Shown here one piece after another: positions 1,223 through 34,162 of a stretch of DNA of 34,162 bases (positions are counted from its first letter, which is position 1; each line of letters starts with the position of its first letter). The position numbers and the translations under genes are program-made. Origin of the DNA: Clostridiales bacterium (lineage in GTDB: Bacteria; Bacillota; Limnochordia; Darwinibacteriales; B1SED10-159); the NCBI GenBank assembly GCA_003551965.1, contig PUOC01000258.1:1-34162 (forward strand), given 5' to 3'. The notes beneath the pieces were generated by a model. The model did no database searches and was not told the origin of the DNA. It was given only the letters and a program-made list of their open reading frames with translations.

Positions 1223-1244
1223 CATGAACGCCGATAGGAGTGAT

Positions 1245-5879: not shown

Positions 5880-5959
5880 GGACATTCTCCTTCCTGTTAT
5901 TTCACCGTTGATTCCAAACACTATTCGCCAAGGGGCCCGTCCAATCCTTCACACTGATT

Positions 5960-12458: not shown

Positions 12459-12466
12459 CAATACCC

Positions 12467-16173: not shown

Positions 16174-16306
16174 CGGCAGATATCCATTATCCAAGGAAGT
16201 CCCTACGTGAATTGCAGCGGTTTTCTGGCGTTCATCTCTGGCACTGTGTTGTTTGTTCAATCGGTTATGCCTCCGGCTTAGAACATTGGCAGGAAAGGAA
16301 CTTTTT

Positions 16307-17104
16307 ATGCACACGAAAACAGGCTTGAAAGAGGATTTGGCGACACTGGGCATCGATCCTAAGGGTACTCTCTTAGTCCATTCATCGATGAAACAAATCG
16401 GGGACGTGGCCGGAGGCGCTGACACGGTGTTGGATGCACTCTCGGAATATATGGTCGAAGGCCTTTTAGTACTGCCCACCCACACCTGGTCCTATGTGGG
16501 CCGGGAGAAGCCGGTATTTGACCGTGAGCACTCTCCAAGCTGCGTGGGCATCTTGACAGAATTGTTTCGGCAACGTCCTGGAGTCCATCGGTCTCTGCAT
16601 CCGACACACTCAGTAGCTGCCCTTGGACGAGGGGCTGAAACATTCGTGCGGGGTGATGAACTGTGTGATACACCGTGCCACAGAAGCTCGGTGTGGGGCC
16701 GACTATTTGACAGGCATGCCCAGATTATACTGGTGGGCGTTGACCTGAATCGCATGACGTATTTCCACGGCGTAGAGGAATGGGTGGATGTTCCCGGACG
16801 GTTGACCGATGGACACCAGACCCTATACACCGTCCTTCCCAGCGGCCAGCGGAAGCCGGTCCCGTCCCGGCGTCACTGCGGCAGTCCATCGGATCACTTC
16901 CATAAGGTGGATCACATCATGCGGGCTGCCGGTGTTATGCATATCGGACAGTTTGGGTCAGCGGAGACAAGGGTATGTCAAGCTCGGCCCATGGCGACAT
17001 TACTGATGGACATGCTGCGAAAGGACCCAGAGCTGTTCTCTGATAGTTCGGTGCTGAAACCGGACTTGGAGCGATGGGCCCTTGGCAGGGAAGAAACGAA
17101 GTAG
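16307..17104 (+). CDS. AAC(3)-family aminoglycoside N-acetyltransferase-like protein
   Basis: A 265-residue member of the AAC(3)/YokD family. Characteristic segments are LLVHSSMKQIG near the N terminus, VLPTHTWSY, the RSLHPTHSVAALG stretch (His and Thr-His-Ser are conserved around the acetyl-CoA and substrate site), SSVWGRL, and IILVGVDLNRMTYFHGVEE. Family members transfer acetyl from acetyl-CoA to the 3-amino group of aminoglycosides, but many chromosomal homologues do other acyl transfers. The start is ATG 16307 after AGGAAAGGA; an in-frame ATG at 16253 has no ribosome site. It follows the methyltransferase by 133 bp and the aldo/keto reductase follows after 29 bp. Nothing suggests recent transfer. 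Confidence 0.88.
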   Translation: MHTKTGLKEDLATLGIDPKGTLLVHSSMKQIGDVAGGADTVLDALSEYMVEGLLVLPTHTWSYVGREKPVFDREHSPSCVGILTELFRQRPGVHRSLHPTHSVAALGRGAETFVRGDELCDTPCHRSSVWGRLFDRHAQIILVGVDLNRMTYFHGVEEWVDVPGRLTDGHQTLYTVLPSGQRKPVPSRRHCGSPSDHFHKVDHIMRAAGVMHIGQFGSAETRVCQARPMATLLMDMLRKDPELFSDSSVLKPDLERWALGREETK

Positions 17105-18102: not shown

Positions 18103-18259
18103 GGCAGAGGCAGAGAGCCGAGGCTAACAGGCGGCATATCCCCTTCGGCGGGGGTAGCAGTTCGGTTAGGTATCCTGGCATGACCGACGCGCCCGGCCTC
18201 TCCTAAAAACGTTCAGACAGGGGAGGAGGCGGGCGGGGAGCGGGGTAGATGGACGATGG

Positions 18260-18290
18260 GCCACACAGTCTGCGCGGCAGGCTGTGTGGC
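18260..18290. repeat. Strong 14-bp hairpin in the terminus region
   Basis: GCCACACAGTCTGC (18260-18273) and GCAGGCTGTGTGGC (18277-18290) form a 14-bp stem with a 3-base loop and one T-G mismatch. It lies 158 bp after the aldo/keto reductase stop. No U tract follows (TCGTTATC), so it may end transcription inefficiently, protect the 3' end, or be a protein-binding site. Confidence 0.7.
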
Positions 18291-18302
18291 TCGTTATCTG
18301 GA

Positions 18303-18364
18303 GCACCGTGCTGCCGTTAGCTGCCGTTATTGGAATGCCGTTATCAAGGCTGCAGCACGGGTGC
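18303..18364. repeat. Imperfect inverted repeat enclosing three TGCCGTTA repeats
   Basis: GCACCGTGCTGC (18303-18314) is complementary to GCAGCACGGGTGC (18352-18364) with one bulged base. TGCCGTTA occurs at 18312-18319, 18322-18329 and 18336-18343. The function is unknown. Confidence 0.55.
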
Positions 18365-18870
18365 GCCAGTAGGCAGTCGCGGCAGTTTTGAGGTTTCTTT
18401 AATCAAGTGGAGTGTGACAAGAGGAACTTTTGCAGAACACCTCTTAGCGTCGAGATTTGGCAGAGAATGGCGGCAACTGGTGTGGATGACGTTTCACAGT
18501 GGCGCTCGCCGCGGTGTTGTGTTCTGATCAGCTGTGCATCAAAGCTGGCGGCCGCAGAGGTGGCCATTCTAAACGAGATATACGGGCAGCAGCCCTTGCT
18601 TGACAGGCGCGCAGCTGAAGATTTCCAGTGCGCATTCCTTTGCTGGCCGTGCCGGCCGGCGGCACCTTCGGCTGGCAGATGGTGCTGGGGAGCCATTTCC
18701 GTAGGCATTTACGGGGTGAGCATGACGCTAGGGCACGGCTCCGGCGAGGGACTCTGCCGAAGCAGTGGGGTCCCAGTGCCGTTAACGCGGCGCCATTGGC
18801 CTGGAGTACGGGCTGTGCCGCAAGGGCGTTCTCCGGAGGCGCTCACACGCCATGGCCTTGATTTTTCTTT

Positions 18871-18898
18871 AGTTTACATAATATACATTATGCGAAGT
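18871..18898 (-). other. dif: dif-like XerC/XerD recombination site (chromosome terminus)
   Basis: Read on the minus strand, the 28 bp split into ACTTCGCATAA (XerC-type arm), TGTATA (6-bp centre) and TTATGTAAACT (XerD-type arm). From memory, the XerD arm is identical to that of B. subtilis dif. The GCATAA part of the left arm and the TGTATA centre match E. coli dif. Arm and spacer lengths are exactly 11-6-11. It is intergenic, 52 bp past the end of the methyltransferase gene, and lies where gene direction flips, as expected at the replication terminus. XerC/XerD recombine here to resolve chromosome dimers, with DNA brought by FtsK/SpoIIIE-type translocases. Confidence 0.88.
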
Positions 18899-18949
18899 TG
18901 TGAGATGAGGGAAGTTGCCTCAGGCGGCTCCTATCGATCCAGGATGCGA

Positions 18950-19732
18950 TCAAGGGTTTCGGGCTAGATACAAGTCTACCGTATCATGGATAACCAGTCG
19001 ATTGCCGCAGTCCTCAATTGTCTCTTGTATTGCATGGAAAAACGGATTTCGGATTTTTTCGCCGAGGCTTCTATGATCCGAATACGTGCTGAGCAGTTGT
19101 GTATATTGTTCACCGGTCACCGTGCGCGTGCTGCGGTACAGTTTGAACTTCAGGTCCCTAAATCCGTAAGCTTCGATTTCGTTTAGGTTGTTGGCGAACT
19201 GCTGTGCCAGACCTGGGTCTCTTTTTTGGCCCTTTAAGCTCCATTCTGGAACAAACCGGTCATATAGCGATTGTATCCTGCGATGCAGCGGGTCTTCGGG
19301 ATTATTGACTGACGGTCTATTCCAAAATAATGCCAGGGTTCCCCCAGACCTTATGATCCTTCGGGCCTTTGGATAGCCTACTTCGGGCGGTATCCAATGA
19401 AAGGCTGTGGCTGAAAACAGCATGTCAAAGCGCCCGGGTTCACTGTCGCAATCCTCAAATTTCCCATGGATGATCTCCAAGTTTTCGTAGTCTGCGAACT
19501 TCTTTCGGGTATACGATGCCATCCTGCTTCCGAGTTCAATGGCTGTTATGCGGCAGCTTCTGTCCAAGAAAGGCTGGGTGGCCTGTCCGGTTCCGCAACC
19601 GACTTCAACGATTCGCTGGCCAGGCATAATATGGGCATACTCGATGATATCCTCAAACAGTTGGGCATCGTAACCAGGCCGGACCGCATCATAGGCCTGG
19701 ACAGCGTGGTCAAAAAGGTGCCGCCTTTCCAT
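18950..19732 (-). CDS. Class I SAM-dependent methyltransferase
   Basis: A 260-residue Rossmann-fold methyltransferase. Motif I is IVEVGCGTGQATQPF (about residues 41-55). Motif II is ITAIELGSRM with the acidic residue that binds the AdoMet ribose. Then come FDMLFSATAFHWIPPE (motif post-II/IV) and RIIRSGGTLALFWN (motif V-like). The N terminus FDHAVQAYDAVRPGYD is shared with the 'methyltransferase type 11' proteins that act on small molecules. ATG 19732 follows AAGGAGGAGC. It is the first leftward gene right of the dif-like site. The substrate is unknown. Confidence 0.88.
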   Translation of the reverse strand: MERRHLFDHAVQAYDAVRPGYDAQLFEDIIEYAHIMPGQRIVEVGCGTGQATQPFLDRSCRITAIELGSRMASYTRKKFADYENLEIIHGKFEDCDSEPGRFDMLFSATAFHWIPPEVGYPKARRIIRSGGTLALFWNRPSVNNPEDPLHRRIQSLYDRFVPEWSLKGQKRDPGLAQQFANNLNEIEAYGFRDLKFKLYRSTRTVTGEQYTQLLSTYSDHRSLGEKIRNPFFHAIQETIEDCGNRLVIHDTVDLYLARNP

Positions 19733-19877
19733 CGAAGTTGCTCCTCCTTTTTCCCCATTCTTTCATTGCCCGCCAGTGGAGGCATCTTAAAGCATGAGCC
19801 CATTATAGCACACATATCCCACGAAGCCGCCTGCGGATTGCACGCACGGTCTTTCGCGGCAGGGCTCTATCTAGACG

Positions 19878-19914
19878 AAAAAAACACAGCCGCCGTTATG
19901 ACAACAGCTGTGTT
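19878..19914 (-). terminator. Rho-independent terminator of the YneA-like gene
   Basis: On the minus strand AACACAGC pairs with GCTGTGTT (19907-19914 and 19883-19890) as an 8-bp stem with a 16-base loop, followed by a run of T residues (19884 down to 19878). It begins 14 bp after the stop of the LysM gene. Confidence 0.85.
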
Positions 19915-19927
19915 GACTTATGAAGGT

Positions 19928-20233
19928 TTACTGGAGCGAAATTGGTGCTTTAGCTGTGGGAACGACCAAGCGCTGTCCTGGATACAGTGTTGGATCATCC
20001 AATCCATTGGCCTTCCGTATCTTCCATACCAAATCCCTTGGGTCATTTTGCGGACTGGCATTGCGTGCAATCGTCCAGAGGGTATCTCCCGGCCGCACAA
20101 CCACCTCTTCCTTCGCAAACTCCAGCCCCTGGTCACCGCTGGCCGACAGTAATGAGCCCGCGGCCACCAGTGTGAAAACCAACATGAACAGGATACCGTA
20201 TGCACAAATCTGGCGCAGAGAATCTTGCAACAT
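19928..20233 (-). CDS. yneA: YneA-like LysM-domain membrane protein, probable SOS cell-division inhibitor
   Basis: A 101-residue protein with a single N-terminal membrane segment (ILFMLVFTLVAAGSLL, about residues 14-29) and a LysM domain (VVVRPGDTLWTIAR to YPGQRLVVP, about 44-91). In B. subtilis, YneA has the same architecture and size, is transcribed divergently from lexA, and delays septation during the SOS response. Position, architecture and the LexA boxes in its promoter support the assignment. ATG 20233 follows GGGAGGGG. A terminator follows, so it is monocistronic, without the yneB/ynzC genes that accompany it in Bacillus. Sequence similarity beyond the LysM fold was not testable here. 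Confidence 0.82.
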   Translation of the reverse strand: MLQDSLRQICAYGILFMLVFTLVAAGSLLSASGDQGLEFAKEEVVVRPGDTLWTIARNASPQNDPRDLVWKIRKANGLDDPTLYPGQRLVVPTAKAPISLQ

Positions 20234-20273
20234 GTACTACCCCTCCCATGAATCGCATGTATGTTTCTTTTAA

Positions 20274-20285
20274 AAACGCTTGTTC
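20274..20285. promoter_or_regulatory. Second SOS (LexA/DinR) box of the YneA-like gene
   Basis: AAAC-GCTT-GTTC on the plus strand (GAAC-AAGC-GTTT on the minus strand) matches the GAACNNNNGTTC core with one mismatch. It lies downstream of the yneA-like promoter, in the leader. Confidence 0.6.
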
Positions 20286-20302
20286 ATATATGCCATGATT
20301 AG

Positions 20303-20331
20303 AGTGTAGTACAGAACAATTGTTTTGTCAA
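20303..20331 (-). promoter_or_regulatory. Promoter of the YneA-like gene with SOS box in the spacer
   Basis: On the minus strand TTGACA (20331-20326) and TACACT (20308-20303) are 17 bp apart. The spacer holds AAAC-AATT-GTTC (20325-20314), an SOS box with one mismatch. LexA bound there would block RNA polymerase directly. About 70 bp of leader separates it from the start codon. Confidence 0.75.
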
Positions 20332-20339
20332 TACGTATA

Positions 20340-20800
20340 TTTGTTCTTGCGTGTTGGAAGATCGAACCCAGGCTTCGCCGTCATGGACTTGCCTTTCTGC
20401 TTCGCCTCATCTGTAGAAAAGATGAAAAAGAACAGAAGTTTGCTGGCATGCGAACACAGGTCATCCTTGTCCCCCGGATCCGAGTGTACTCAAGGGAAGA
20501 TCTTCCCTGCTGACCGGCTGAACAGCATTGGGGTCGGACGTTGGGTTGTTTCTGCAATGCGCACCGGCATCGTGCGGCCTGTTTCGGGGGGGCCCTCCCA
20601 CCTCGACAGAGCGACAACGCCTCCAGGGGAGCACATTCCTCCGCAAAGGGTTGTGGTTGACTTGGCCACGAGTCCCTCGCCGGAGGAGCCCTTTTGACCG
20701 CAGGAAGTAAGTTGTAAGTAAGGTCTGCTGCAGGATGAACAGCCGTTAAGTGAGCAGCCTTGGATGCGGTCGGCTTTCGGCGGTCAGCGGTGAAGGTTGT
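20340..20800. other. Gene-free stretch between the SOS promoters
   Basis: About 460 bp between the yneA-like promoter and the lexA promoter hold no supported gene. Open frames on both strands lack ribosome sites and family features. The DNA is GC-rich and can fold (for example CGCAC/GTGCG at about 20560-20575). Its outer parts CTTCCCTGC (about 20502-20510) and GCAGGAAG (about 20700-20707) are nearly complementary. A structured RNA cannot be excluded. Confidence 0.45.
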
Positions 20801-20808
20801 GCAATAAA

Positions 20809-20822
20809 CGAACGGAGGTTTG
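20809..20822. promoter_or_regulatory. SOS (LexA/DinR) box at the lexA promoter
   Basis: CGAAC-GGAG-GTTTG matches the Bacillota SOS core GAACNNNNGTT exactly and overlaps the lexA -35 box, so LexA should repress its own gene. A half site CGAAC also occurs at 20831-20835 in the promoter spacer. Confidence 0.78.
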
Positions 20823-20848
20823 ATTTTTTTCGAACACCGTGATATAAT
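20820..20848 (+). promoter_or_regulatory. lexA promoter
   Basis: TTGATT (20820-20825) and a perfect TATAAT (20843-20848) are separated by 17 bp; lexA starts about 33 bp after the -10. Confidence 0.8.
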
Positions 20849-20880
20849 GAACACAATGAAGCCATTGGGAGGCGATGTCG

Positions 20881-21492
20881 GTGAAGATGCTAACCATGCG
20901 ACAAAAACAGATTTTACAGTATATTCATGACGAAGTGCAGGCGAAAGGATATCCCCCTTCAGTCCGCGAGATTGGCGACGCCGTTGGCCTGCAGTCAAGT
21001 TCTTCGGTCCATGCCCAACTGCGCAGACTCGAGGAGCAGGGTTATCTCCGGCGTGACCCTACAAAGCCCCGGGCCATAGAGCTTTTGGGAGCCGAGGGCA
21101 CTGTGGCCAAGAGTATTCGCAATGTGCCGATCGTTGGCTCCGTCCAAGCGGGTGAACCTGTGCTTGCCGCTGAAAACATCACCGACTACTTCCCCATTCC
21201 CAAGGACTTCACCGATTCCGAATCGGTTTTTATGCTGCAGGTATCCGGCGACAGCATGATTAACGCAGGGATCTTGGATGGCGACTATGTTCTCGTCGAG
21301 CAGCGGGCTGCGGCTCGCAGTGGCGAAATTGTGGTGGCCCTAGTGGATGATGAGGAAGCCACGGTGAAGCGCTTCTTCCTCGAAGATGGGTACGTCCGGC
21401 TCCAACCGGAGAATCCAGCCATGGAGCCGATTGAGACGATGAATGTGGCAATTCTCGGCAAGGTCGTGGGTGTGTTTCGCCGCCTTCACTGA
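20881..21492 (+). CDS. lexA: SOS repressor LexA
   Basis: A 203-residue LexA. The N-terminal winged helix-turn-helix includes [20 protein letters not shown], followed by [13 protein letters not shown]. The self-cleavage site is QAGEP (Ala90-Gly91). The catalytic Ser is in VSGDSMI (Ser125) and the Lys in EATVKRFF (Lys163). RecA filaments on single-stranded DNA stimulate cleavage, which releases SOS genes. I chose GTG 20881, 8 bases after GGGAGG; ATG 20875 would sit only 2 bases from it, and ATG 20887 is also possible. It is divergent from the yneA-like gene as in Bacillus and is the only rightward gene right of the terminus. An SOS box overlaps its promoter. Confidence 0.97.
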
Positions 21493-21571: not shown

Positions 21572-21621
21572 AGAGCATAGCAAATGCCGAGCTGGGTAAC
21601 CTTGCGCTCAAACCACGCGCA

Positions 21622-22641: not shown

Positions 22642-23400
22642 TTAGTCAAAAGCAACGCTTCTTGGAAGCTCCTGCAATACACTGCAATTTGTGAGGTCGG
22701 GCCGCAGCGGAGTCACAGAGATGCAACCGTCGGCAATGGCGGCCATATCGATGCCAGGGCCGTTGTCCGCCGCTGAGGAAGTTCCGCCAAGCCAATAATA
22801 CGGTATTCCCTTGGGGTCTCTGCGCTCTTCAAACATATTGTTGTATATGCGCATGCCCTGTCTTGTAAACCGCAGTTCCGGCGGGTTAGAACAACTGATG
22901 CCGTCCGGTATATTGACATTATACAGTGTATCCTTTCGCAAAGGAAGCAGATCATTTTGGAGCATGCGGCTGACCACAGCCGCGGCGTCCTCGAATCCGC
23001 TCGGGGACGTACCGCACAGTGAAACAGCTATGGCAGGAAAGCCGAGAATTAAGCCTTCCATGGCAGCCGAAACGGTGCCTGAATATAACACATCGGTACC
23101 GAGATTGGCTCCGCTGTTTATTCCGGATATGACTAGATCTGGCCTCCATCCCAGCGCTTGAACTGCTAGTTTGACACAGTCGGCAGGCGTACCATTGGTC
23201 ATGAAGCTGTCCTGCAGTGAAGGTATCAGAGGTTGGTAGGTTATACGCAGCGGGTCATGCACTGTGATTCCGTGCCCAACAGCACTACGTTCGTGGCTAG
23301 GGGCCGCCACCATGACGTCACCTATGGACTGCAGCGCTTCAGCCAGGCTGCGCAGGCCTGTTGCATGGAAGCCATCGTCATTGGACAGAAGTATTTTCAA
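22642..23400 (-). CDS. surE: 5'/3'-nucleotidase SurE
   Basis: A 252-residue SurE. The metal-binding N terminus is LLSNDDGFHA (Asp8, Asp9). APSHERSAVGHGIT carries the conserved Ser39. NGTPADCVKLAVQAL and SGINSGANLGTDVLYSGTVSAAMEG are family signatures, with the metal-ligand Asn in GINSG. The enzyme removes phosphate from nucleoside monophosphates and short polyphosphates and aids survival in stationary phase. The start is TTG 23400 after AGAAAGGTGA. It follows mgtC by 29 bp and precedes the ypmA-like gene, forming an apparent three-gene unit. No protein-repair methyltransferase gene (pcm), its partner in Proteobacteria, is present here. Confidence 0.96.
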   Translation of the reverse strand: MKILLSNDDGFHATGLRSLAEALQSIGDVMVAAPSHERSAVGHGITVHDPLRITYQPLIPSLQDSFMTNGTPADCVKLAVQALGWRPDLVISGINSGANLGTDVLYSGTVSAAMEGLILGFPAIAVSLCGTSPSGFEDAAAVVSRMLQNDLLPLRKDTLYNVNIPDGISCSNPPELRFTRQGMRIYNNMFEERRDPKGIPYYWLGGTSSAADNGPGIDMAAIADGCISVTPLRPDLTNCSVLQELPRSVAFD

Positions 23401-23429
23401 GAGCTGTCACCTTTCTCTAACGACGAACG

Positions 23430-24098
23430 TTATTTGAAGCTCGCACGGTTGATCCCGGGAGTGGACACCAGTTCGTCAAGGATTTGAATTCTATTGGCTT
23501 TAGGCGGAACTTCCACTGCCAACTCGACCGCTACCTCCCCTTCCGCTTCGGTGTACAGAGAGACATTGACCACATTGACATCGTGTTCTGCCATGGCTGT
23601 AAAGACTTTGGCCAGCTGCCCCGGTGTATCCTGGGCTTGAACCCGCAGAACTTCCTGTTTATGGGATAGATAAGCCCATTCCACGCGGTTCAAGAAGATG
23701 AGTGTCAGGACAACCAGTGCCGTGGCTAGCAGGGCCGGAAAGTAGAACCCGGCACCGATGGTCAGGCCAATGCCGGCCACCGACCAGAGACTGGCAGCGG
23801 TGGTCAAGCCGCGAATATTAGCCCCCTCTCGCATGATTGTCCCGGCGCCCAGAAACCCAATGCCGCTGATGACTTGGGCAGCGATCCGCCCGGGATCATA
23901 ACCGCCTTCACGGCCGGTTTCCATACCCATAAACGCATAGGCGCTCACCAGCATCACAAGGGCAGAGCCAACGCAGACAAGGATGTGGGTTCGGAACCCT
24001 GCGGGCCGTCCGTGGCTTTCACGTTCAAGTCCAATCAATCCGCCCAGAATCAGAGCCAGGACGAGGCGTATGGCTATTTCAAGGTTTGTGAGTTCCAA
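23430..24098 (-). CDS. MgtC/SapB family membrane protein
   Basis: A 222-residue protein. The N-terminal half has four to five membrane helices (RLVLALILGGLIGLERE, THILVCVGSALVMLVSAYAF, IGFLGAGTIM, then a helix pair around LWSVAGIGLTIGAGFYFPALLATALVVLTLI). GLERESHGRPAGFRTH and ISGIGFLGAGTI are the family signature. The cytoplasmic C-terminal domain (about 145-222, with VNVVNVSLYTEAEGEVAVELAVEV) looks ACT-like. MgtC of Salmonella affects magnesium and ATP homeostasis; most others have unknown roles. The start is TTG 24098 behind GGGGAGG. It precedes surE in an apparent operon. No magnesium riboswitch was seen. Confidence 0.92.
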   Translation of the reverse strand: MELTNLEIAIRLVLALILGGLIGLERESHGRPAGFRTHILVCVGSALVMLVSAYAFMGMETGREGGYDPGRIAAQVISGIGFLGAGTIMREGANIRGLTTAASLWSVAGIGLTIGAGFYFPALLATALVVLTLIFLNRVEWAYLSHKQEVLRVQAQDTPGQLAKVFTAMAEHDVNVVNVSLYTEAEGEVAVELAVEVPPKANRIQILDELVSTPGINRASFK

Positions 24099-24167
24099 TG
24101 CTGCCTCCCCTTTCCTCCGCGCTCATCTTAAGTGCGGTGACGGCTATTCGGTAAGGCAGTACGGCAG

Positions 24168-24207
24168 CAAAAAGAAAAAGCTGCAAGCATTTGATCCCTG
24201 CAGCTTT
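24168..24207 (-). terminator. Rho-independent terminator after the sigH-like gene
   Basis: On the minus strand AAAGCTGCA and TGCAGCTTT (24207-24199 and 24185-24177) form a 9-bp stem with a 13-base loop, followed by TTTCTTTTTG. A larger outer pairing AAGTGCGG/CCGCACTT (24130-24137 and 24212-24219) could enclose it. It separates the sigH-like gene from mgtC. Confidence 0.82.
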
Positions 24208-24310
24208 ACCGCCGCACTTGAAGGTATGGTTAGTCAAGTGCATTCTCGAAAGACCCTATGTACGATCATCGGCAGCGGCTTGCAGCACCTATGCTCGTCC
24301 TTACTGCCCG

Positions 24311-24922
24311 CTACATGCGCCGTTCAATTTTTCCTTTGATCCTGCAGAGGGCGTTGTCAATGGATTTCGTATGGGTGTGGAGGTTTTCGGCGATCTCTTT
24401 GTAGGAATACCCCGTGATATAGAACTGAAACACATTGTATTCGAATTCGGATAGGATTTCGCGGATCCTAGCCTTCGTCTGGCTGAGGTGTTCCCGGTTA
24501 ATAGCGAGTGTTTCCGGGTCATCCACCGAGTTGTCTGAGAGCATTTCCAAAAGTGTCCGATCACCTTCGTAGTCATAGACCGGCTTGTGCAGGGATGTGT
24601 AGGAGTTAAGGGGGATATGCTTTTGGCGCGTAGTTCCTTTGATGGCACTGATTACGTTGCGTACAATGCAAAGCTTGGCAAACGACCAAAAGGATGATGA
24701 TCCGCCGGAATAGTCTCGGATGGCTTTAAACAGTCCAATCATGCCTTCTTGCAGCACGTCGTCGGCTTCACCGCCCTGAAGGAAGTACGAACGAGTCCAG
24801 ATAAACACCATTTTTTGGTATTTATTCAGGAGATATTCCTCCGCCAGGGGATCGCCTTGTTGTGCTAACACGACTAGTTCTTCATCGTTCAAGCATTGAA
24901 ACCTTGGTGCCGGAGCTTCCAT
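24311..24922 (-). CDS. sigH: RNA polymerase sigma-70 factor, SigH (Spo0H) type
   Basis: A 203-residue sigma factor very like B. subtilis SigH, which directs transition-state and early sporulation genes. Region 2 reads SYFLQGGEADDVLQEGMIGL (core binding) and then FAKLCIVRNVISAIKGTTRQKHIPLNS, with the RQKHIPLNSYTSL segment particularly SigH-like. Region 4 is FYITGYSYKEIAENLHTHTKSIDNALCRIK, a helix-turn-helix that reads the -35 box. The start is ATG 24922 after GGAAGGAG. The frame extends to 25024, but that part reads through the speH terminator. In Bacillus sigH lies near rpmG-secE-nusG; here it sits beside speH and mgtC, so this may be a second SigH-type factor rather than the canonical copy. 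Confidence 0.88.
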   Translation of the reverse strand: MEAPAPRFQCLNDEELVVLAQQGDPLAEEYLLNKYQKMVFIWTRSYFLQGGEADDVLQEGMIGLFKAIRDYSGGSSSFWSFAKLCIVRNVISAIKGTTRQKHIPLNSYTSLHKPVYDYEGDRTLLEMLSDNSVDDPETLAINREHLSQTKARIREILSEFEYNVFQFYITGYSYKEIAENLHTHTKSIDNALCRIKGKIERRM

Positions 24923-25004
24923 ACACGCCCGCTCCTTCCGGTTGGCGATTTGGTGCTTCTTACGAATTCGACACAAATGTTCCAAATCCTGCTCGGGCAT
25001 GCAT

Positions 25005-25046
25005 AATAAAAGCCCTAAATCCATCGTTTTTGATGGAAATAGGGCT
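25005..25046 (-). terminator. Rho-independent terminator of speH
   Basis: On the minus strand AGCCCTATTTCCATC pairs with GATGGATTTAGGGCT (25046-25032 and 25025-25011): 13 bp with a 2-by-2 internal mismatch, a 6-base loop, then TTTATT. It lies 55 bp after the speH stop and in front of sigH. Confidence 0.85.
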
Positions 25047-25101
25047 AGGTGTCTCGATCACAGTCGGATAACATACAGTGTGAATTTCCCTCCTTGTGAA
25101 T

Positions 25102-25479
25102 CTAGGAAATCTTTACCGATACTTCGTGCTGGAAAATACCGCGCTTCACTTCTGTGGTTGTCGCGTTTTGTGCTGCAAACTTGTCTGTGAGATAATTGCA
25201 AGCGTCCCATGGGTCTACGCTGTCGCCGCACGTAAACACATCAATGGCAGCATAGCCCAGCTCCGGCCACGTATGAATGGCCAAGTGCGACTCAGAGATT
25301 ACGACGACGCCACTGACACCTTGCGGACTAAATTGATGAAAGGCCACTTCCCTCACCTCAGCACCGGTTTCCAGTGCTGCTTCCACCATGGTTCGTTCGA
25401 CCAGGTCCCGGTCGTTCAGCACCCCAGGGTCACATCCATATGCTTCGCATAGGATATGACGTCCCAAAGCATTTTTCAT
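25102..25479 (-). CDS. speH: S-adenosylmethionine decarboxylase proenzyme, SpeH type
   Basis: A 125-residue AdoMet decarboxylase of the small prokaryotic class. It self-cleaves before a Ser to form a pyruvoyl group; the site is [12 protein letters not shown] (cleavage before Ser64, with His69 conserved). The Cys proton donor is in VFTCGD (Cys84). The product, decarboxylated AdoMet, supplies aminopropyl groups for spermidine. No speE, speA or speB gene is in the window. ATG 25479 follows AAAAGGGGG at 11 bases. It has its own promoter at 25531-25558 and a terminator, so it is monocistronic. Confidence 0.95.
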
Positions 25480-25530
25480 CCCATTCGTTGCCCCCTTTTC
25501 CTACGGATTGGAAACGATGAACCAACTTGA

Positions 25531-25558
25531 ATTCTAGCAGATTGTGCTGGAATGTCAA
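25531..25558 (-). promoter_or_regulatory. speH promoter
   Basis: On the minus strand a perfect TTGACA (25558-25553) and TAGAAT (25536-25531) are 16 bp apart. About 50 bp of leader separates it from the speH start. Confidence 0.78.
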
Positions 25559-25603
25559 GGATAAGATCGTCTATCGGTCTTCTGGCCCATTTTTCTGCGT
25601 TTT

Positions 25604-26818
25604 TCACCATTTTTCGCCGTCGATCACGCTCTCAAGAGCTAATTCCACATGGTGCCGGCTGAATCCTCCCTGAAGATATCCAATATATGGATGCCGCATA
25701 GGGGCATCTGCACTAAGTTCGATGGACGAGCCTTGAATGAACGTCCCTCCGGCCATGACTACGGGGTCTTGATAACCCGGCATATCGTCCGGTTCTGGGG
25801 CAAAATGGGCATCAATGGCTGAAGCCGCCTGGATTTGCCGACAGAAATGCAGAAGCCTGCTGCGACTACCAAACTTGACTGCTTGGATGATGTCCGTGCG
25901 CGGTTCTTTGGGCAGGGGCGATACCTCCAACCCCATTTGGGAGAACACTTGAGCTGCCAGAACAGCTCCGGCTAGGGCTTCGCCGACCACATGCGGTGCC
26001 ATGAAGAAACCCTGCAGCAGCGTCCGGTTCAGTCCAAATGTGGGCCCAACACCGGCACCCAGACCCGGTGCCGTCAGCCACTCGGCAATGCGGTCAATGA
26101 GCGACTGCCTTCCCACCAAATAGCCACCGCTGACAGCCAGTGTGCCACCGGGGTTTTTGATCAACGATCCAGCGGCCAAATCAGCACCCACATTCGTCGG
26201 CTCGCATTCCTCAACGAACTCGCCATAGCAATTGTCGACGAACACAATGCAGCGAGGATTCCGTGTGCGAACAAGTTCAATCGCTTGCTGCAGTTGGCTC
26301 GTTTGTATCGACGGGCGCCAGCTGTAACCCCGTGAGCGCTGAAAAAGCACCATGTCAGTGTTCTTGGTCACCGTTTGCCGGATAGCGTCGTGATCCAAGC
26401 ATCCGTCTGCGGAGAGAGGGGCTTCTTTGTAATGCACACCCTGCTGCAGCAGGCTCTGTTTGGCTGTGCCTGCTGTGCCGATGACCTGCTGCAGTGTATC
26501 GTAGGGAGGACCGCTGGCAGAAATCAGTTCATCCCCGGGTTTTAGCAGGCGCAGGCCCAAGGTAATGGCATGGGTGCCTGATACCAGTTGGGGACGCACC
26601 AAGGCGGCCTCAGTTCCAAAGACCGATGCATAGACCTGTTCCAAGGCCTGGCGCCCGAGATCATGGTATCCATAACCGGTGCTGTCATGGAAACAATGGG
26701 AGCCCACCTTCGCTTCATGAAAGGCTTCTAATACCTTTCGCTGGTTGTTCTTCTGGATTGCGTACTGTTCCTCCCAAATGGGGCGAATCGCCTCGCGGGC
26801 CTTATCAATCGGACGCAT
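25604..26818 (-). CDS. ynbB: YnbB-type PLP enzyme (methionine gamma-lyase / aluminium-resistance family)
   Basis: A 404-residue fold-type I PLP enzyme. FHDSTGYGYHDLGR is the N-terminal family signature. RPQLVSGTHAITLGL holds the phosphate-binding turn. VFVDNCYGEFVE has the Asp that pairs with the PLP nitrogen. SLIKNPGGTLAVSGGYL carries the Lys expected to bind PLP. Family members sit by hfq, miaA or glnR in many Bacillota and are annotated as aluminium-resistance or cystathionine beta-lyase-like proteins; the true reaction is uncertain. The start is ATG 26818 with a modest AAAGGAA. It overlaps the upstream small gene by 14 bp. The ORF extends to 26902 without a better site. Confidence 0.9.
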   Translation of the reverse strand: MRPIDKAREAIRPIWEEQYAIQKNNQRKVLEAFHEAKVGSHCFHDSTGYGYHDLGRQALEQVYASVFGTEAALVRPQLVSGTHAITLGLRLLKPGDELISASGPPYDTLQQVIGTAGTAKQSLLQQGVHYKEAPLSADGCLDHDAIRQTVTKNTDMVLFQRSRGYSWRPSIQTSQLQQAIELVRTRNPRCIVFVDNCYGEFVEECEPTNVGADLAAGSLIKNPGGTLAVSGGYLVGRQSLIDRIAEWLTAPGLGAGVGPTFGLNRTLLQGFFMAPHVVGEALAGAVLAAQVFSQMGLEVSPLPKEPRTDIIQAVKFGSRSRLLHFCRQIQAASAIDAHFAPEPDDMPGYQDPVVMAGGTFIQGSSIELSADAPMRHPYIGYLQGGFSRHHVELALESVIDGEKW

Positions 26819-27059
26819 CGGCGGGCCGTTCCTTTTTTGTATCCCGAAGGATGGATTTAGCTTGGACCCGTTTGCCTGGAAGTTTTTCCAGTGTAGAATC
26901 ACGCAGCTGTTTTTCAGAATGGATGGTAAGGCGGAATCGGCCGTCCTCTAACGGCATCATCTCCAGTTCACCGGTGACATCGTATTTGTTCCAAAGCAGT
27001 GAAGCTGTCTTTTCCATATCGTCTCTTGCATCAAACTCTAGAGCAATCGACTGGATCAT
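26805..27059 (-). CDS. Small conserved-looking hypothetical protein, 84 residues
   Basis: An 84-residue protein with an alternating strand-helix-strand pattern: IQSIALEFDA, DMEKTASLLWNKYDV, GELEMMPLEDGRFRLTIHSEK, then LRDSTLEKLPGKRVQAK and a charged tail. This could be a ferredoxin-like fold. I have no family name for it. ATG 27059 follows a strong GAGGAGG at 7 bases, and it lies 12 bp after the MFS stop and overlaps ynbB by 14 bp, so the three genes look like one operon. A role connected with the ynbB enzyme is possible but is only inferred from coupling. Confidence 0.78.
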   Translation of the reverse strand: MIQSIALEFDARDDMEKTASLLWNKYDVTGELEMMPLEDGRFRLTIHSEKQLRDSTLEKLPGKRVQAKSILRDTKKERPADASD

Positions 27060-27071
27060 GGTGCGTCCTCC

Positions 27072-28217
27072 TCATGTTCGTACTCGAAATGTGCTCAATA
27101 ACCAGGCGGCGGCGACCATTCCCGCAGTGATCACCATCAGCCACTGGAGCCCCGCCGCTACTGAATGCAGATCTGCAGCCACACCCACGAATCCCGGTAG
27201 TACTGTGCGACCAATGGAGCCGAAGGTTATCAGGACGGCTGTAACCGTTCCCGCCAGCTGCGGAAAGTCTCGATTGGCCGTGGCTAAGCTGGTTGGAAGC
27301 AAGCCGGCAAAGAAAAACCCAGTTAGAAAAAATCCGATGCCGGACACTGCCACTACCGGCGCCCAGAGACTGGCGGCCATGGTCGCTGTGGACAATGCAG
27401 CGATTATCAAGAGCAGTCTTTCATAGGGCAGGCGTTCAGCCACGGCACTGCAGGCCAACCGCCCTACGGCCAAGCCAGCGCTGTAGAGAGCCAGCACAAA
27501 TGACGCTGTCCAGGCCGACGTATGCAGAGCCTCCAGCAAAAACGTGTTAATCCAGCCCATGATAGCCGTGCCTACGCCTGTGTATCCGAAGATAATAAAA
27601 CCCAGCATTACAATCCGCCAGCTCCATACATGTCGGATGTTACTCCAGGGCGATGCAGTACGCGCCGGAATGGCGGGAAACTGCTGCAGGTACATGTAGG
27701 TGAAGAAGAAAAGGGCCAAGGCTGTGGAGGCGGCAAATACTCCGCGCCAATGTACTACGCTTAACAGGCCTTGGGAGAACAGTGGTCCCATGATTGCACC
27801 AGCACCAAACCAAAAGTGCAGGCGGTTCAGTGCCGCTCCCTTCTTCTCATTGACCTCTGCAACCAAGGCATTCAAACCTGTGTCGATGGCTCCAAAACCT
27901 AGCCCAATGATCAGCCACACACCGAGGGCTATCCAAGGGGCGGAAGAAAGGGCGAAACCGGCGAAGCCTACAGCCCACATCAATGCACCAGTCAAGATAA
28001 ACCTGCGCCGGCCTAGGATATCCGAGAAGAAGCCAGCGAAAAGGACTGCACCAATGATCCCGGCTCCACGCAGTGAGTACAGCGTCCCCGCTTCTGTAAG
28101 GGATAATTCTAAATCGATGATAATCAGCGGCAGTAAAGGCCCCATCATGTTGAGCAGGATTCCAAAAATAAAAAGGCCCAAGTTGGCACCTCGTGTCAGC
28201 GCGTGGATTGCTACCAC
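27072..28217 (-). CDS. MFS transporter, 12 helices (paralogue of the 9.6-kb gene)
   Basis: A 381-residue twelve-helix MFS protein. The loop after helix 2 reads GFFSDILGRRRFI, close to the GxxxDxxGRR motif A. Helix 4-5 reads GLGFGAIDTGLNALVAEV and then NRLHFWFGAGAIMGP, the same pattern as in the MFS gene at 9574-10731. The GTG start at 28217 has only a weak GGGATAGGG nearby. It leads an apparent operon with the 84-residue gene and ynbB, so it might export or import the substrate of the YnbB enzyme, which is inference only. Confidence 0.87.
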   Translation of the reverse strand: MVAIHALTRGANLGLFIFGILLNMMGPLLPLIIIDLELSLTEAGTLYSLRGAGIIGAVLFAGFFSDILGRRRFILTGALMWAVGFAGFALSSAPWIALGVWLIIGLGFGAIDTGLNALVAEVNEKKGAALNRLHFWFGAGAIMGPLFSQGLLSVVHWRGVFAASTALALFFFTYMYLQQFPAIPARTASPWSNIRHVWSWRIVMLGFIIFGYTGVGTAIMGWINTFLLEALHTSAWTASFVLALYSAGLAVGRLACSAVAERLPYERLLLIIAALSTATMAASLWAPVVAVSGIGFFLTGFFFAGLLPTSLATANRDFPQLAGTVTAVLITFGSIGRTVLPGFVGVAADLHSVAAGLQWLMVITAGMVAAAWLLSTFRVRT

Positions 28218-28304
28218 CCCTATCCCTTGACTCCATGTTTTGTTGTAATTCCCATGGAACTCGCGTATATTTCGTTGCCTTGTACCCTACGGTGCTGTGG
28301 TCTC

Positions 28305-28333
28305 ACTGCAAAGGCGCCACCCAGGCGCTTTTG
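28305..28333 (-). terminator. Weak terminator after hfq
   Basis: On the minus strand AAGCGCC and GGCGCCTT form a 7-bp stem with one bulge and a TGGGT loop, followed by a short TTTG. It begins just after the hfq stop. Read-through into the MFS operon is possible. Confidence 0.5.
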
Positions 28334-28336
28334 CAT

Positions 28337-28534
28337 CTATCCGACCGTCAGTCTGCACACCGCGTGCTTATAAATGAGGTATTCCTTATCTGCTTCTAAG
28401 AATATGGTAAAGGTGTCAAAGGATTTGACTGTACCTTTGAGCTGGCTTCCGTCGTTAAAGGTTACTGTAACAAACTTCTGGTCTTCCTTGAGGTCCTGAA
28501 GAAATTGATCTTGAACATTGATGTTGGTCTTCAC
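28337..28534 (-). CDS. hfq: RNA chaperone Hfq
   Basis: A 65-residue Hfq. NVQDQFLQDL is the N-terminal helix, with the Gln that contacts RNA. FVTVTFNDGSQLKGTVKSFDTFTIFLE is the Sm1 motif, and YLIYKHAVCRL is Sm2, with the YKHA residues of the proximal uridine pocket. It forms a hexamer that pairs small RNAs with mRNAs; in Bacillota its role is often limited. There is no long C-terminal tail, as usual for the phylum. I chose GTG 28534, 7 bases after GGGAGG; the TTG at 28549 is inside the ribosome site. It follows miaA by 21 bp as in Bacillus and E. coli. Confidence 0.95.
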   Translation of the reverse strand: MKTNINVQDQFLQDLKEDQKFVTVTFNDGSQLKGTVKSFDTFTIFLEADKEYLIYKHAVCRLTVG

Positions 28535-28555
28535 GGCGATTCCTCCCAAACGGCT

Positions 28556-29497
28556 TTACCCTATAATTCCCCGCAGTTCGGAGCTGTTCCTGCAAACGTC
28601 GAGAATTCGATGGAAAACATGTTCTTCACAGGTCTCTGTGAGGTTAAACCAGTATATTTCCTTTCGCCGTCGAAACCACGACAGTTGTCGTTTGGCGTAC
28701 CGCCTGGTATCCCGTTTCAGGAGATGCACCGCTTCGGAAAGGGTGATGCGACCCCGCAGATACCAGACGATTTCCTTGTACCCCAAGGCCTGGAGAGCTG
28801 TGGGTTGGTGTGGATAGCGTCTTATCAGTTCTTCTACTTCTTCGATCAAACCCTCTGCCAGCATGTGGTCGATTCGCTCTTCCACTCGATGATACAGGTC
28901 GGAGCGCTCCCGAGTCAGCCCGAACCAGAGTCCGTGGTACCGCGGCCCCTTCTTTCTGCCTTCTGCCTGGAGTTCACTCAAGGGCCGGCCTGTCCGCCGA
29001 TATACTTCTAGAGCGCGGATGATCCGCCGCTGATCATGGGGGTGCAGTTTGGCCGCGGTTACAGGGTCTATTCGCTGCAGCCATTGGAACACCGCTGCCG
29101 GATCCAGTTGCCACTGACTGGCGAGTTCGCTTCGAATTGATGCATCGGCCCCCTGGTCAGGAAAGAGAAAGCCATCCATGAGGGCGTCAATATAAAGGCC
29201 TGTGCCTCCGCTGACAATGGGGATGTGTTGTCGTCGCTCTATATCGGAGATGCAAGCCGAGGCCCGGCAGACATAGTCGGAGACATTGAAACTTTGATCC
29301 GGATCAACAATATCCACCATGTGATGAGGTACCTGCCGACGATCTGCCGCCGACGGTTTCGCTGTTCCGATATCCATCCCTCTGTACACTTGCATGGAAT
29401 CGGCAGAAACGATCTCCGCCGGGCACTGCTTGGCGAAAGCCAAGGTAATTTCCGTCTTGCCCACAGCGGTCGGACCCACGATAACTGGTAACTGCAA
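28556..29497 (-). CDS. miaA: tRNA dimethylallyltransferase
   Basis: A 313-residue MiaA, which adds a dimethylallyl group to N6 of A37 in tRNAs that read UNN codons. The P-loop is VGPTAVGKTE at the N terminus. SADSMQVYRGMDIGTAKPS contains the catalytic and substrate-binding residues. GGTGLYIDALMDG, DQRRIIRALEVY and LQALGYKEIVWYL are further conserved blocks. The TTG start at 29497 follows GAAGGAGG at 9 bases. It lies 15 bp after mutL and 21 bp before hfq, the standard order mutS-mutL-miaA-hfq. Confidence 0.97.
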   Translation of the reverse strand: MQLPVIVGPTAVGKTEITLAFAKQCPAEIVSADSMQVYRGMDIGTAKPSAADRRQVPHHMVDIVDPDQSFNVSDYVCRASACISDIERRQHIPIVSGGTGLYIDALMDGFLFPDQGADASIRSELASQWQLDPAAVFQWLQRIDPVTAAKLHPHDQRRIIRALEVYRRTGRPLSELQAEGRKKGPRYHGLWFGLTRERSDLYHRVEERIDHMLAEGLIEEVEELIRRYPHQPTALQALGYKEIVWYLRGRITLSEAVHLLKRDTRRYAKRQLSWFRRRKEIYWFNLTETCEEHVFHRILDVCRNSSELRGIIG

Positions 29498-29512
29498 TCT
29501 TGCATTCCTCCT

Positions 29513-31438
29513 TCAGACGCGGCCAAAGCGGCGCTGCAGTTCATGATGATCAAGGCGTACAATGATGGGGCGCCCGTGGGGACAGTGAAACGGATCATCG
29601 GCATCGGCCAGCTGCCGCAGAAGGCTGTGAATCTGACGTTGGTCGAGATATTCACCGGCCTTGACTGCGCCCCGACAGGCCATGGTCAGGGCCGCTTTGC
29701 CCTGCCAGCGATGGTCAGAGTCCACTTCTTCGGCAATGTCGAGGATATCCTGTTCCCAGGCACCACTGGTCCGCGACAGTTCCTGGGGGACACCCCGGAG
29801 CAAAAACGCAGAAGGCCCGAACTCCTCTAGTTCTAAGCCCAGTGCAGCCAGGGTGTCTAAATGCTGTCGCACGGCTTCGGCAGATCCGGTTGAAAACTCC
29901 AGTGTAACAGGCAGAATCTGCTGGACTGTCGGGCGCTGCTTTTCAGCCGCAAGAAAGCGTTCGTACAGAAGTCGTTCGTGGACAATGTGCTGATCCAGTA
30001 TCCACAAACCCTGGTCTGTCTCCAAAAGGATGTAGCTTTGATATAACTGGCCGATGATCCGGCCGTTTAGAAGCCGGTCGCGAGCCTGCTGGCCGGCGGA
30101 TGCAGCCGTGGGTGTACAGTCCTCGCCGTCGCCGGGGCCATGGGACGTCGCTCCATTGGACTGACGGTGCTCTCGAAGGGCTGCCTGTTCGCCATCATGA
30201 TCTGCTGTGCCGTCCTGTCTTGGCCAAGAATCAGGTTTTTGTTGTCCCAATGGTGCTTTAGGAGCGATTTGGTCTTGGCCGCCGCTGTTCTCCCGGAGAA
30301 TGGCATCCACCTGTTCCCAGGAACGGGGCGACCACAGCTTCTCTGGCTGCGGCGACGTTCCCGAAAATGGAAAGCTTGTCTGCCGGCTCTCGCTGCTTCC
30401 GGCTCCAGATTGGCCAGGTGTTTTTTGGGAGCGGTCCATTGCAGTGGAAAGGTCTGCCTCTTGCAGCGCCTGCCTTACTGCCTGGTTGATCTCGGAAGCC
30501 AGTTGCCGTTCATTTTGAAACCGCACCTCGGCCTTCGTAGGATGCACGTTGACATCGATGGTTTCGGGATCCACAGTGATGACCAGTACAAAGAAAGGAA
30601 ACCGCCGCTGCGGAAGCATTCCCTGATAGGCGCGTTCGGCAGCATAGACGATGGCCGGCGCTTGAATCAAGCGGCCGTTCAGGATTACAACCTGTTCTCG
30701 GCGGTTGCCTTTGTTGATTTTCGGAGGGGCGACGCAGCCAGTCACACTTCCCCATTGGGCACTGTGCTCCAATTTTAACACTTGTTGTGCTCGATTCCTT
30801 ACATAGGCTGCCGCTATGGCATCTAGCTGGTCCCCGGACCCCGGAGTATGGAAGATTTCCCTTTCATCGGCTGTGAGTCGAAAGGCAACATGGGGATGGG
30901 CAATGCCGAACTTGGCCATCAAATCAGCGATTTCCCGACGCTCGCTAGACGGAGATTTCAAGAATTTATACCGTGCAGGCGTGTTGTAGAACAGCCGCCT
31001 CACCTCTACGGTTGTCCCGGGCCTTGTTCCAGCGGGATGCTTTTCTGCACTGCCATCTTTGAAAGACACGGCATAGCCCCGGTCCACATCCCTCGTTCGG
31101 GTGAGCAGTGTCATCTCAGATACGCTGGCAATACTGGGCAGCGCCTCGCCGCGAAAGCCCAGCGATTGTATGGAGAACAAGTCGCTGACTGTGCGGATTT
31201 TGCTGGTTGCATGCCGCATAAACGCCCGCTCCAGGTCGTCTTCCGCGATGCCGATCCCGTCATCACTGACCTGGATAAATTCCTGTCCGCCCTCTTCTAT
31301 CGTCACATCAATCCGCTCAGACTGCGCGTCCAAAGAATTTTCCACCAGTTCCTTGACCACAGATGCCGGACGCTCTACCACTTCTCCGGCGGCGATTTTA
31401 TGACTCAATTCTTCGGGAAGCAGTTGAATCACACCCAT
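29513..31438 (-). CDS. mutL: DNA mismatch repair protein MutL
   Basis: A 641-residue MutL. The GHKL ATPase comprises IAAGEVVERPASVVKELVEN, DDGIGI, HATSKI and GFRGEALPSIASV. A 120-residue hydrophilic linker (about 340-455, Ser/Gln/Pro/Gly-rich) follows, then the dimerisation and endonuclease domain. WILDQHIVHERLLYERF is the DQHA(x)2E(x)4E metal motif with Ala changed to Ile. ACRGAVKAGEYL and CPHGRPI are the further zinc-site motifs, so it should be a nicking MutL as in Bacillus rather than the E. coli type. The start is 6 bp after the mutS stop, with GGAAGGTGGG as ribosome site inside mutS. Confidence 0.97.
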   Translation of the reverse strand: MGVIQLLPEELSHKIAAGEVVERPASVVKELVENSLDAQSERIDVTIEEGGQEFIQVSDDGIGIAEDDLERAFMRHATSKIRTVSDLFSIQSLGFRGEALPSIASVSEMTLLTRTRDVDRGYAVSFKDGSAEKHPAGTRPGTTVEVRRLFYNTPARYKFLKSPSSERREIADLMAKFGIAHPHVAFRLTADEREIFHTPGSGDQLDAIAAAYVRNRAQQVLKLEHSAQWGSVTGCVAPPKINKGNRREQVVILNGRLIQAPAIVYAAERAYQGMLPQRRFPFFVLVITVDPETIDVNVHPTKAEVRFQNERQLASEINQAVRQALQEADLSTAMDRSQKTPGQSGAGSSESRQTSFPFSGTSPQPEKLWSPRSWEQVDAILRENSGGQDQIAPKAPLGQQKPDSWPRQDGTADHDGEQAALREHRQSNGATSHGPGDGEDCTPTAASAGQQARDRLLNGRIIGQLYQSYILLETDQGLWILDQHIVHERLLYERFLAAEKQRPTVQQILPVTLEFSTGSAEAVRQHLDTLAALGLELEEFGPSAFLLRGVPQELSRTSGAWEQDILDIAEEVDSDHRWQGKAALTMACRGAVKAGEYLDQRQIHSLLRQLADADDPFHCPHGRPIIVRLDHHELQRRFGRV

Positions 31439-31444
31439 GGGGGA

Positions 31445-34018
31445 TTACCCACCTTCCATGATTTGTTTCCAACGAAACAAGATATCCAGTGCTTGACGGG
31501 GAGTCATCTGTTCAGGATCCAAGGATTGGAGTTCATCGAGGATCTCTTCGTCACTTTCACTCGGTTGGGAACCGCTGCTGTACTGGGCTGATTGAAACAG
31601 GTCTAACTGAACCGGTTTCTTCTGCCCGGCTTCTAGTTGATAGAGCAGGTCTTGCGAACGCCGGATGATACCCTTTGGTATCCCCGCCATCTTGGCCACG
31701 TTGATCCCATAACTGCGATCGGCATTGCCTCGCACGACTTTATGCAGGAAAAACACCTGTCCCCGGGATTCCTCAACTTCCACTCGATAGGCAGCCAACC
31801 CCTGCAGCGTTTCCTGCAGTTTGGTCAGTTCATGATAGTGGGTGGAGAAGAGAGTTCTAGCACCTAAGGAATCGTGTATATGCTCGATCACAGCCTGGGC
31901 AATGGCCATACCGTCGAAGGTGCTTGTGCCTCGGCCGAGTTCATCAAGGATGATCAGGGAGCGCTGTGTGGCATGGTGCAGTAGATGGGCGGTTTCCGCA
32001 CACTCGACCATGAATGTACTCTGTCCTGTGCTCAAATCGTCACCAGCCCCGATGCGGGTGAAGATGCGGTCGACCAATCCGATGTGCGCCCTCTCCGCTG
32101 GAACAAAGCTGCCCATCTGTGCTAGGAGCACAATCAAGGCGTTTTGCCGCAGGTAGGTGCTTTTCCCGGCCATATTAGGACCTGTTAGCAGAAGTGTCTT
32201 CTCTTTGCTGTCCAAAAATAGATCGTTTGGGACAAACGCTGGCTGTACCGACTCGATGACAGGATGTCTGCCTTCCCTGACATCGAAATGCGGTTCCTCC
32301 CTGATTTCGGGTCGGCAGTAACGCTGCCGTGCCGCCGTTTCGGCCAAACTTTGAACGGAGTCTAGCTCCGCAATGGCGGCAGCGGTAGCTTGGATGGCGT
32401 CCACGTGCTCCCGGACCCGATTGCGCAGGTCCACGAACAACTGGTATTCCAGTTGTTTGATTCGCTCGTCGGCCCCGAGTATCAAAGACTCTTTTTCCTT
32501 CAACTCAGGCGTTATAAAGCGCTCCGCATTGGACAGCGTCTGCTTGCGCATATAGGTCTCGGGAACCAAATGGATGTTGGGCTTGGTTACCTCCAGGTAA
32601 TAGCCAAACACCTTGTTGTAACCTACCTTCAAAGATTTGATCCCGGTGTGCGAGCGCTCCTGTTCTTCCAAACTCTGGATCCACTGCCTTCCCCCTCGGC
32701 TGGCTTCCCGGAGTTCATCGAGTTCATCATGGAACCCATCTCGGATAATGCCTCCATCACGGATTACCAGTGGTGGGTCATCCACCAGCGCTTGATCGAT
32801 GGTCCTCACGAACTCGGGCATGGTTTGGATCTGCTGCTGCAGTTCTGCTAATTTTTTCGCTTCTGCATCATTTAGCATGGCCCTGAGGCCGTTGGTATTC
32901 TGCATGGACTGGCTTAAGGCGCGCAGATCCCTTGGCGTTCCCGAACCGCTGATTAGGCGGCTTAAAAGCCGTTCCAGATCAAGAATGCCATCTAGTGCCT
33001 GGCGCAGATCATCGCGGAGACTGGGATTCGTTACAAGGGCATCGACGGCATCTTGGCGTTCCACAATCAGATCTATCTGCAGCAGGGGTTGCTGCATCCA
33101 TGTGCGCAGCATTCTGGCTCCCATACTGGTTATCGTTTGGTTAATGATTCCGAAAAGAGAATGTCCTTTGCTGTCACCGAGGGATTGAAAGACTTCCAGG
33201 TTGCGCAAGCTGGCGCCGTCAATTGTCAGATATTGGTCCGTTCGATAGGTGCGGACATTTCGGATGTGTTCAGCCGTATTCTTTTGGGTATTCAGGATGT
33301 ACTGCAGCGCGGCTGCAGCAGCCTGGACGGCGGTCCGTTTATGCAGACCAAATGCGTCTAGGGTATGGATTTCAAAGTGATCGAGCAGCAGCTTTTCTGC
33401 GGATGTGCGGCGGAGCATGCGCCGGTCTGCCTCCGCAGTAGGGATCTGCAGTGACTGGACCAACTCCATGGCATGATCCTGGGCCTGCATCTCTTGGTTG
33501 ACTAGCAGTTCCACAGGAACGACGCGCTGCAGTTCGTCATTCAGGGCATCGACTGTGTCTATAACAGTCACCTTGAATTCCCCGGTAGACAGCTCAACGA
33601 GGGCTAGCCCAATATCCTGGGGCCCCTTAACGGCAGCCGCCAAGTAACGTTTGTCGGCACTGTCACCCGAGGCTTCTAGGTATGTGCCCGGGGTTACCAC
33701 GCGGACTACGTCTCGCTTAACTACGCCCTTGGCCTGCTTCGGATCTTCCAATTGCTCGCAAATAGCCACGTTGTATCCCTTTTCCACTAGCGTTTGCAGA
33801 TAACCAGACACAGCGTGATGGGGAACGCCGCACATAGGAAGCCTTTCCCGATCCTTTCCGGCGTCACGGCTGGTGAGGGTAATATCCAGCAGTCTGCTGG
33901 CCTGCTTGGCATCATCGCCGAACATCTCGTAAAAATCGCCCAGCCGGAAAAACAACAGGGCGTCAGGATACTGCTCCTTAATTTGGAAGTACTGCGACAG
34001 CATGGGGGTTACGGCCAT
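31445..34018 (-). CDS. mutS: DNA mismatch repair protein MutS
   Basis: An 857-residue MutS1. The N-terminal mismatch-binding domain has LLFFRLGDFYEMFGDDA, with the Phe-x-Glu that wedges into the mismatch. The connector, lever and clamp domains follow. The ATPase has Walker A LLTGPNMAGKST, then STFMVECAETAHLL, Walker B LIILDELGRGTSTFDG and the LFSTHYHELT His loop. The start is ATG 34018 behind AAGGAGGAGTT; the frame is open to 34081 but without a better site. It is the first gene of the mutS-mutL-miaA-hfq unit seen here. Confidence 0.98.
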   Translation of the reverse strand: MAVTPMLSQYFQIKEQYPDALLFFRLGDFYEMFGDDAKQASRLLDITLTSRDAGKDRERLPMCGVPHHAVSGYLQTLVEKGYNVAICEQLEDPKQAKGVVKRDVVRVVTPGTYLEASGDSADKRYLAAAVKGPQDIGLALVELSTGEFKVTVIDTVDALNDELQRVVPVELLVNQEMQAQDHAMELVQSLQIPTAEADRRMLRRTSAEKLLLDHFEIHTLDAFGLHKRTAVQAAAAALQYILNTQKNTAEHIRNVRTYRTDQYLTIDGASLRNLEVFQSLGDSKGHSLFGIINQTITSMGARMLRTWMQQPLLQIDLIVERQDAVDALVTNPSLRDDLRQALDGILDLERLLSRLISGSGTPRDLRALSQSMQNTNGLRAMLNDAEAKKLAELQQQIQTMPEFVRTIDQALVDDPPLVIRDGGIIRDGFHDELDELREASRGGRQWIQSLEEQERSHTGIKSLKVGYNKVFGYYLEVTKPNIHLVPETYMRKQTLSNAERFITPELKEKESLILGADERIKQLEYQLFVDLRNRVREHVDAIQATAAAIAELDSVQSLAETAARQRYCRPEIREEPHFDVREGRHPVIESVQPAFVPNDLFLDSKEKTLLLTGPNMAGKSTYLRQNALIVLLAQMGSFVPAERAHIGLVDRIFTRIGAGDDLSTGQSTFMVECAETAHLLHHATQRSLIILDELGRGTSTFDGMAIAQAVIEHIHDSLGARTLFSTHYHELTKLQETLQGLAAYRVEVEESRGQVFFLHKVVRGNADRSYGINVAKMAGIPKGIIRRSQDLLYQLEAGQKKPVQLDLFQSAQYSSGSQPSESDEEILDELQSLDPEQMTPRQALDILFRWKQIMEGG

Positions 34019-34162
34019 TCCAACTCCTCCTTGCATACCCACTAAGTTCGCCGTCATCCAACTCTGCCCTTCTCCAGCCACAGGAATTCTCTCTGGAGGT
34101 CCCGGCGATCGTCAGGCGGCAGAACAAAAGGCCGGCCCCTTCATCTGCCCTCTGTTACGGCA
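34019..34162 (-). other. Upstream of mutS, nothing identified
   Basis: These 144 bp hold the mutS ribosome site (about 34024-34034). Minus-strand frames from the edge end within 25-50 bp (stops near 34114 and 34142), so a gene ending here cannot be named. GGCCGGCC at about 34131 is palindromic, but no clear terminator is visible. Confidence 0.4.

Follow-up and report, generated by a model that had tools for sequence, protein, structure and literature searches.

The question raised by this locus is whether a 28-bp sequence in a gap between genes is the dif site of the chromosome and marks its terminus. Dif, which most bacterial chromosomes carry as a matter of course, is the place where chromosomes joined head to tail are separated after replication. 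We analysed a stretch of 34,162 bp, referred to here as the window, which is one whole contig of the draft assembly of a relative of the Limnochordia (Bacillota), with a total of 3,865,580 bases (3.87 Mb; 329 contigs, 98% complete). We conclude, with a probability of about 96%, that the 28-mer is the chromosomal dif site, which would serve the resolution of dimers by XerCD.

The 28-bp site and its likeness to known dif sites

The site lies at positions 18871..18898 on the minus strand (ACTTCGCATAATGTATATTATGTAAACT) and was identified by sequence match, genome-wide uniqueness, shuffles and a profile. It reads ACTTCGCATAA-TGTATA-TTATGTAAACT, in which two 11-bp arms show partial inverted symmetry about a 6-bp centre, and the sequence, coordinates and strand of this 11-6-11 arrangement are exactly those of the original prediction. 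The XerC-binding arm ACTTCGCATAA (18888..18898, minus) is identical to its counterparts in Bacillus subtilis and Escherichia coli at 8/11 positions each, the central TGTATA (18882..18887, minus) to that of E. coli dif at 6/6, and the XerD-binding arm TTATGTAAACT (18871..18881, minus) to the B. subtilis arm at 11/11; the arms are labelled by position, after PMC3025954 and PMC2731167. Positions 7-12 and 17-22 of the 28-mer are complementary at all six pairs (the inner palindrome CATAAT...ATTATG), a criterion used in PMC3025954.

The experimentally confirmed dif sequences of B. subtilis and E. coli printed in PMC3025954, a paper with a dif catalogue spanning 641 organisms, served as our references. 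Measured against them, the two likenesses that had been claimed were borne out, since one arm equals the B. subtilis XerD arm and both GCATAA and TGTATA are shared with E. coli dif. The B. subtilis site (CodV/RipX system, ACTTCCTAGAATATATATTATGTAAACT), which also belongs to the Bacillota, is identical to the window site at 24/28 positions, including the complete XerD arm and the outer ACTTC of the XerC arm, and differs in the inner XerC arm (CTAGAA versus GCATAA in the window) and in the centre (TATATA versus TGTATA). The E. coli site (XerCD, GGTGCGCATAATGTATATTATGTTAAAT) is identical at 23/28 positions and shares the inner XerC arm and the centre, whereas mismatches fall at the outer ends of both arms. 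This seemingly hybrid look is common and gives no sign of transfer, because the same arms are found in sites on 62 contigs, whose sources include Bacillota, Proteobacteria, Spirochaetes, Aminicenantes and Gemmatimonadetes. A search of the available literature found no papers naming both "Limnochordia" and "dif site".

Genes around the site

The site lies in a gap of 847 bp (18103-18949). An overlapping open reading frame of 186 amino acids (18407-18967) matches no known family, and we did not accept it as a gene. The gap had been described as the only long gene-free stretch, which is wrong, as 19733-20874 also lacks any open reading frame that matches Pfam. Gene direction does flip at the site, as proposed, but the switch is not clean: 5031-5921 and 9574-10731 are read from the minus strand on the left, and lexA (20875..21492) from the plus strand on the right. 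Beyond lexA, a conserved right flank on the minus strand (22642..34081) carries surE, mgtC, a sigma factor, methionine gamma-lyase, MFS, miaA, mutL and mutS. Between dif and lexA there is a methyltransferase gene (18950-19732, minus) that has no match in the loci of 20 relatives, and it is therefore probably a lineage-specific insertion beside dif.

Conservation among relatives

We found one site each, at up to three mismatches, in 32 of 100 related genomes, mostly of the same order; most of the genomes without a site were more distant relatives, and among the closer ones some were incomplete. Distant genomes also gave profile matches near or below significance. Most of the variation fell in the centre (TGTATA, TATATA, TAGATA and GGGATA, among others), whereas the arms changed little. 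This agrees with the description of proteobacterial dif in PMC2731167, in which the XerD arm is well conserved and the centre varies. The site of G001, a relative of the same family, is identical at 27/28 positions and has the same neighbourhood on the lexA side; its centre is TATATA in place of TGTATA.

Across the 20 loci from relatives, the order dif - lexA - surE - mgtC - miaA - mutL, mutS is kept, with miaA, mutL and mutS scored only where the fetched stretch extends far enough. LexA lies on the side of the XerC arm, followed by surE and mgtC, and the orientation of dif is constant. The flank also includes a sigma factor in some relatives and methionine gamma-lyase in nearly all, and the spacing between dif and lexA ranges eight-fold, from 0.5 to 3.9 kb. 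The neighbourhood is frozen across the order in spite of this variable spacing. One could suppose that genes of the SOS response and mismatch repair are selected to stay at the terminus instead of being held there by slow rearrangement alone, but we consider this unlikely. The advantage in that case could be, for instance, low dosage or damage signalling linked to the terminus.

GC skew and position at the terminus

Plus-strand GC skew in the window is +0.10 to the left of dif and -0.02 (-0.024) to the right. The best two-segment splits place the change point, which has no strand, at 18970..19210, about 100-300 bases from dif, and their statistic was reached by 0 of 10000 block permutations. 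The predicted sign change of GC skew at the site is thus found in the window, and skew flips at dif in two related genomes as well (G087 and G032, described below). The raw cumulative maximum of the window is at 21596, which is 2.7 kb past dif and just beyond lexA, because lexA, read from the plus strand in the right replichore, raises the skew. A terminus displaced by this distance was considered and set aside, since the shift is taken as a gene-strand effect of lexA and many relatives are alike. In the loci L163-L164, L166-L171, L174-L175 and L179-L180, the local change point is shifted from dif by about 1.2-1.6 kb in the direction of the XerC arm and falls near the end of lexA, which is transcribed in the opposite direction.

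At third codon positions, skew is +0.04 on the right versus +0.095 on the left; it stays positive on the right, so gene orientation accounts for part of the flip. Given this and the weak right-hand skew, the window taken alone provides moderate evidence. The skew of the relatives is stronger evidence than the window's own. In all 20 of their loci, skew is positive before dif and negative after it, including one locus with only 177 bases on the left. In G032, dif lies in the middle of a contig of 1.13 Mb and the skew flips there: of the stretches sampled across 1.1 Mb, 11/11 before dif have positive skew and 9/9 after it have negative skew.

G087, a one-contig genome from the same phylum, has dnaA at 1.1 kb and dif at 1,365,791 of 2,936,195, about 1.37 Mb from dnaA. 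Skew changes at its dif from mostly positive to uniformly negative, with two slightly negative stretches before dif at about 1.15-1.24 Mb. A position opposite dnaA can be seen in this relative only, because our own draft consists of 329 contigs; on the contig of the draft that carries dnaA, skew passes from negative to positive, as at an origin. A second, weaker profile match in G087 (G087:C1:1509915-1509942; 22.9 bits, E 2.8e-4), 144 kb from the main dif, may represent an IMEX-type copy or have arisen by chance. The orientation of dif relative to skew was dropped as evidence, because a terminus looks identical from both strands; orientation is informative only relative to genes.

Uniqueness in the genome

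A pattern search of the draft genome at up to three mismatches returned the window site as its only match, and the reversed control pattern gave 0 matches in the same genome at the same threshold. We also built a dif profile of 28 positions from the sites of 12 relatives, B. subtilis and E. coli, leaving out the window site. With this profile, the window site was found at E 2.3e-8 and there was no other match up to E 10, which is the single strong match that had been predicted; neither search revealed a better dif elsewhere. Taken together, uniqueness, the skew change point and the skew flips of the relatives support the original reading of the site as a dif that marks the chromosome terminus.

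These searches also bear on a second reading, in which an integrated mobile element that exploits Xer (IMEX-type) brought the 28-mer in or makes use of it, so that it would not be the chromosome's own dif. Known elements of this type integrate at dif and bear dif-like sites (PMC5357621), and the methyltransferase gene beside the site, unmatched in relatives, would fit such an arrival. However, an insertion would leave two flanking dif-like sites, whereas pattern and profile found one, and the 847-bp gap likewise occurs once in the genome; conserved chromosomal genes lie on the flanks and the skew flips at the site. We therefore regard a mobile copy as very improbable. It is scarcely credible that the 28-mer arose by chance or is an unrelated palindrome, such as a transcription-factor operator: the inner palindrome could in principle serve in this way, with no tool result in favour, but 100 shuffles of the window gave 0 chance matches to the site, and relatives that have it carry one per genome, at the skew flip.

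Recombination machinery and proposed function

Three tyrosine recombinases were found in the genome. XerD (TIGR02225 equivalog, 363 bits versus a cut-off of 329.6) and XerC (TIGR02224, 342 versus 335.15) are each present in one copy, and both are intact open frames. The XerD gene adjoins a putative phosphopentomutase gene and the XerC gene a putative trmFO/gid (neighbours named by eye); in B. subtilis, ripX and codV adjoin the corresponding genes. The third recombinase (G000:C171) leaves some room for the idea that dif is an unused relic in an organism relying on another Xer system, but this idea is highly implausible, as that protein is integrase-like with a Phage_int_SAM_3 domain, XerC and XerD are intact and above their NCBIfam cut-offs, and the site agrees with the consensus arms of the clade. 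The C-terminal part of an FtsK/SpoIIIE protein with FtsK_gamma is present at a contig edge. No single octamer stood out as guiding FtsK/SpoIIIE, GAGAAGGG and GGGNAGGG being only mildly polarised.

The unique dif match, the skew flip, the conserved neighbourhood and the presence of XerC, XerD and FtsK gamma make it very likely that the 28-mer is a functional XerCD/dif site, at which recombination would take place. By analogy with known systems, the site would be bound by XerCD, activated through FtsK and subject to strand exchange, with a role in dimer resolution. If sister chromosomes cross over an odd number of times, a circular chromosome would become a dimer, and a septal translocase of the FtsK/SpoIIIE type would then pump the DNA so that the two dif copies meet. 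XerC would occupy the left and XerD the right 11-bp arm of each dif, and a single crossover at the 6-bp centre would yield two monomers again. This is a classical XerCD/dif site, another member of a well-known kind, and knowledge of dif is unchanged by it. Its value is that, from a draft assembly, it fixes the terminus and the replichore boundary of an uncultured bacterium, that it adds a non-genic element which gene annotation overlooks, and that dif catalogues gain one more data point.

Other features of the window

On the plus strand at 1224-4680, an SbcD-like phosphoesterase gene overlaps that of an AAA_27/SMC-like ATPase; the pair resembles an SbcCD-type nuclease, with scores far below NCBIfam cut-offs. 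A T-box leader (12206-12432, plus; RF00230, 129.6 bits) immediately precedes a gene (12383-13456) for a class I tRNA synthetase from the Trp/Tyr family. We also found a gene for an aminoglycoside 3-N-acetyltransferase family protein (16253-17104, plus; PF02522, 208.7 bits), and homologues lie near dif on the opposite strand in two relatives (L164 and L165).
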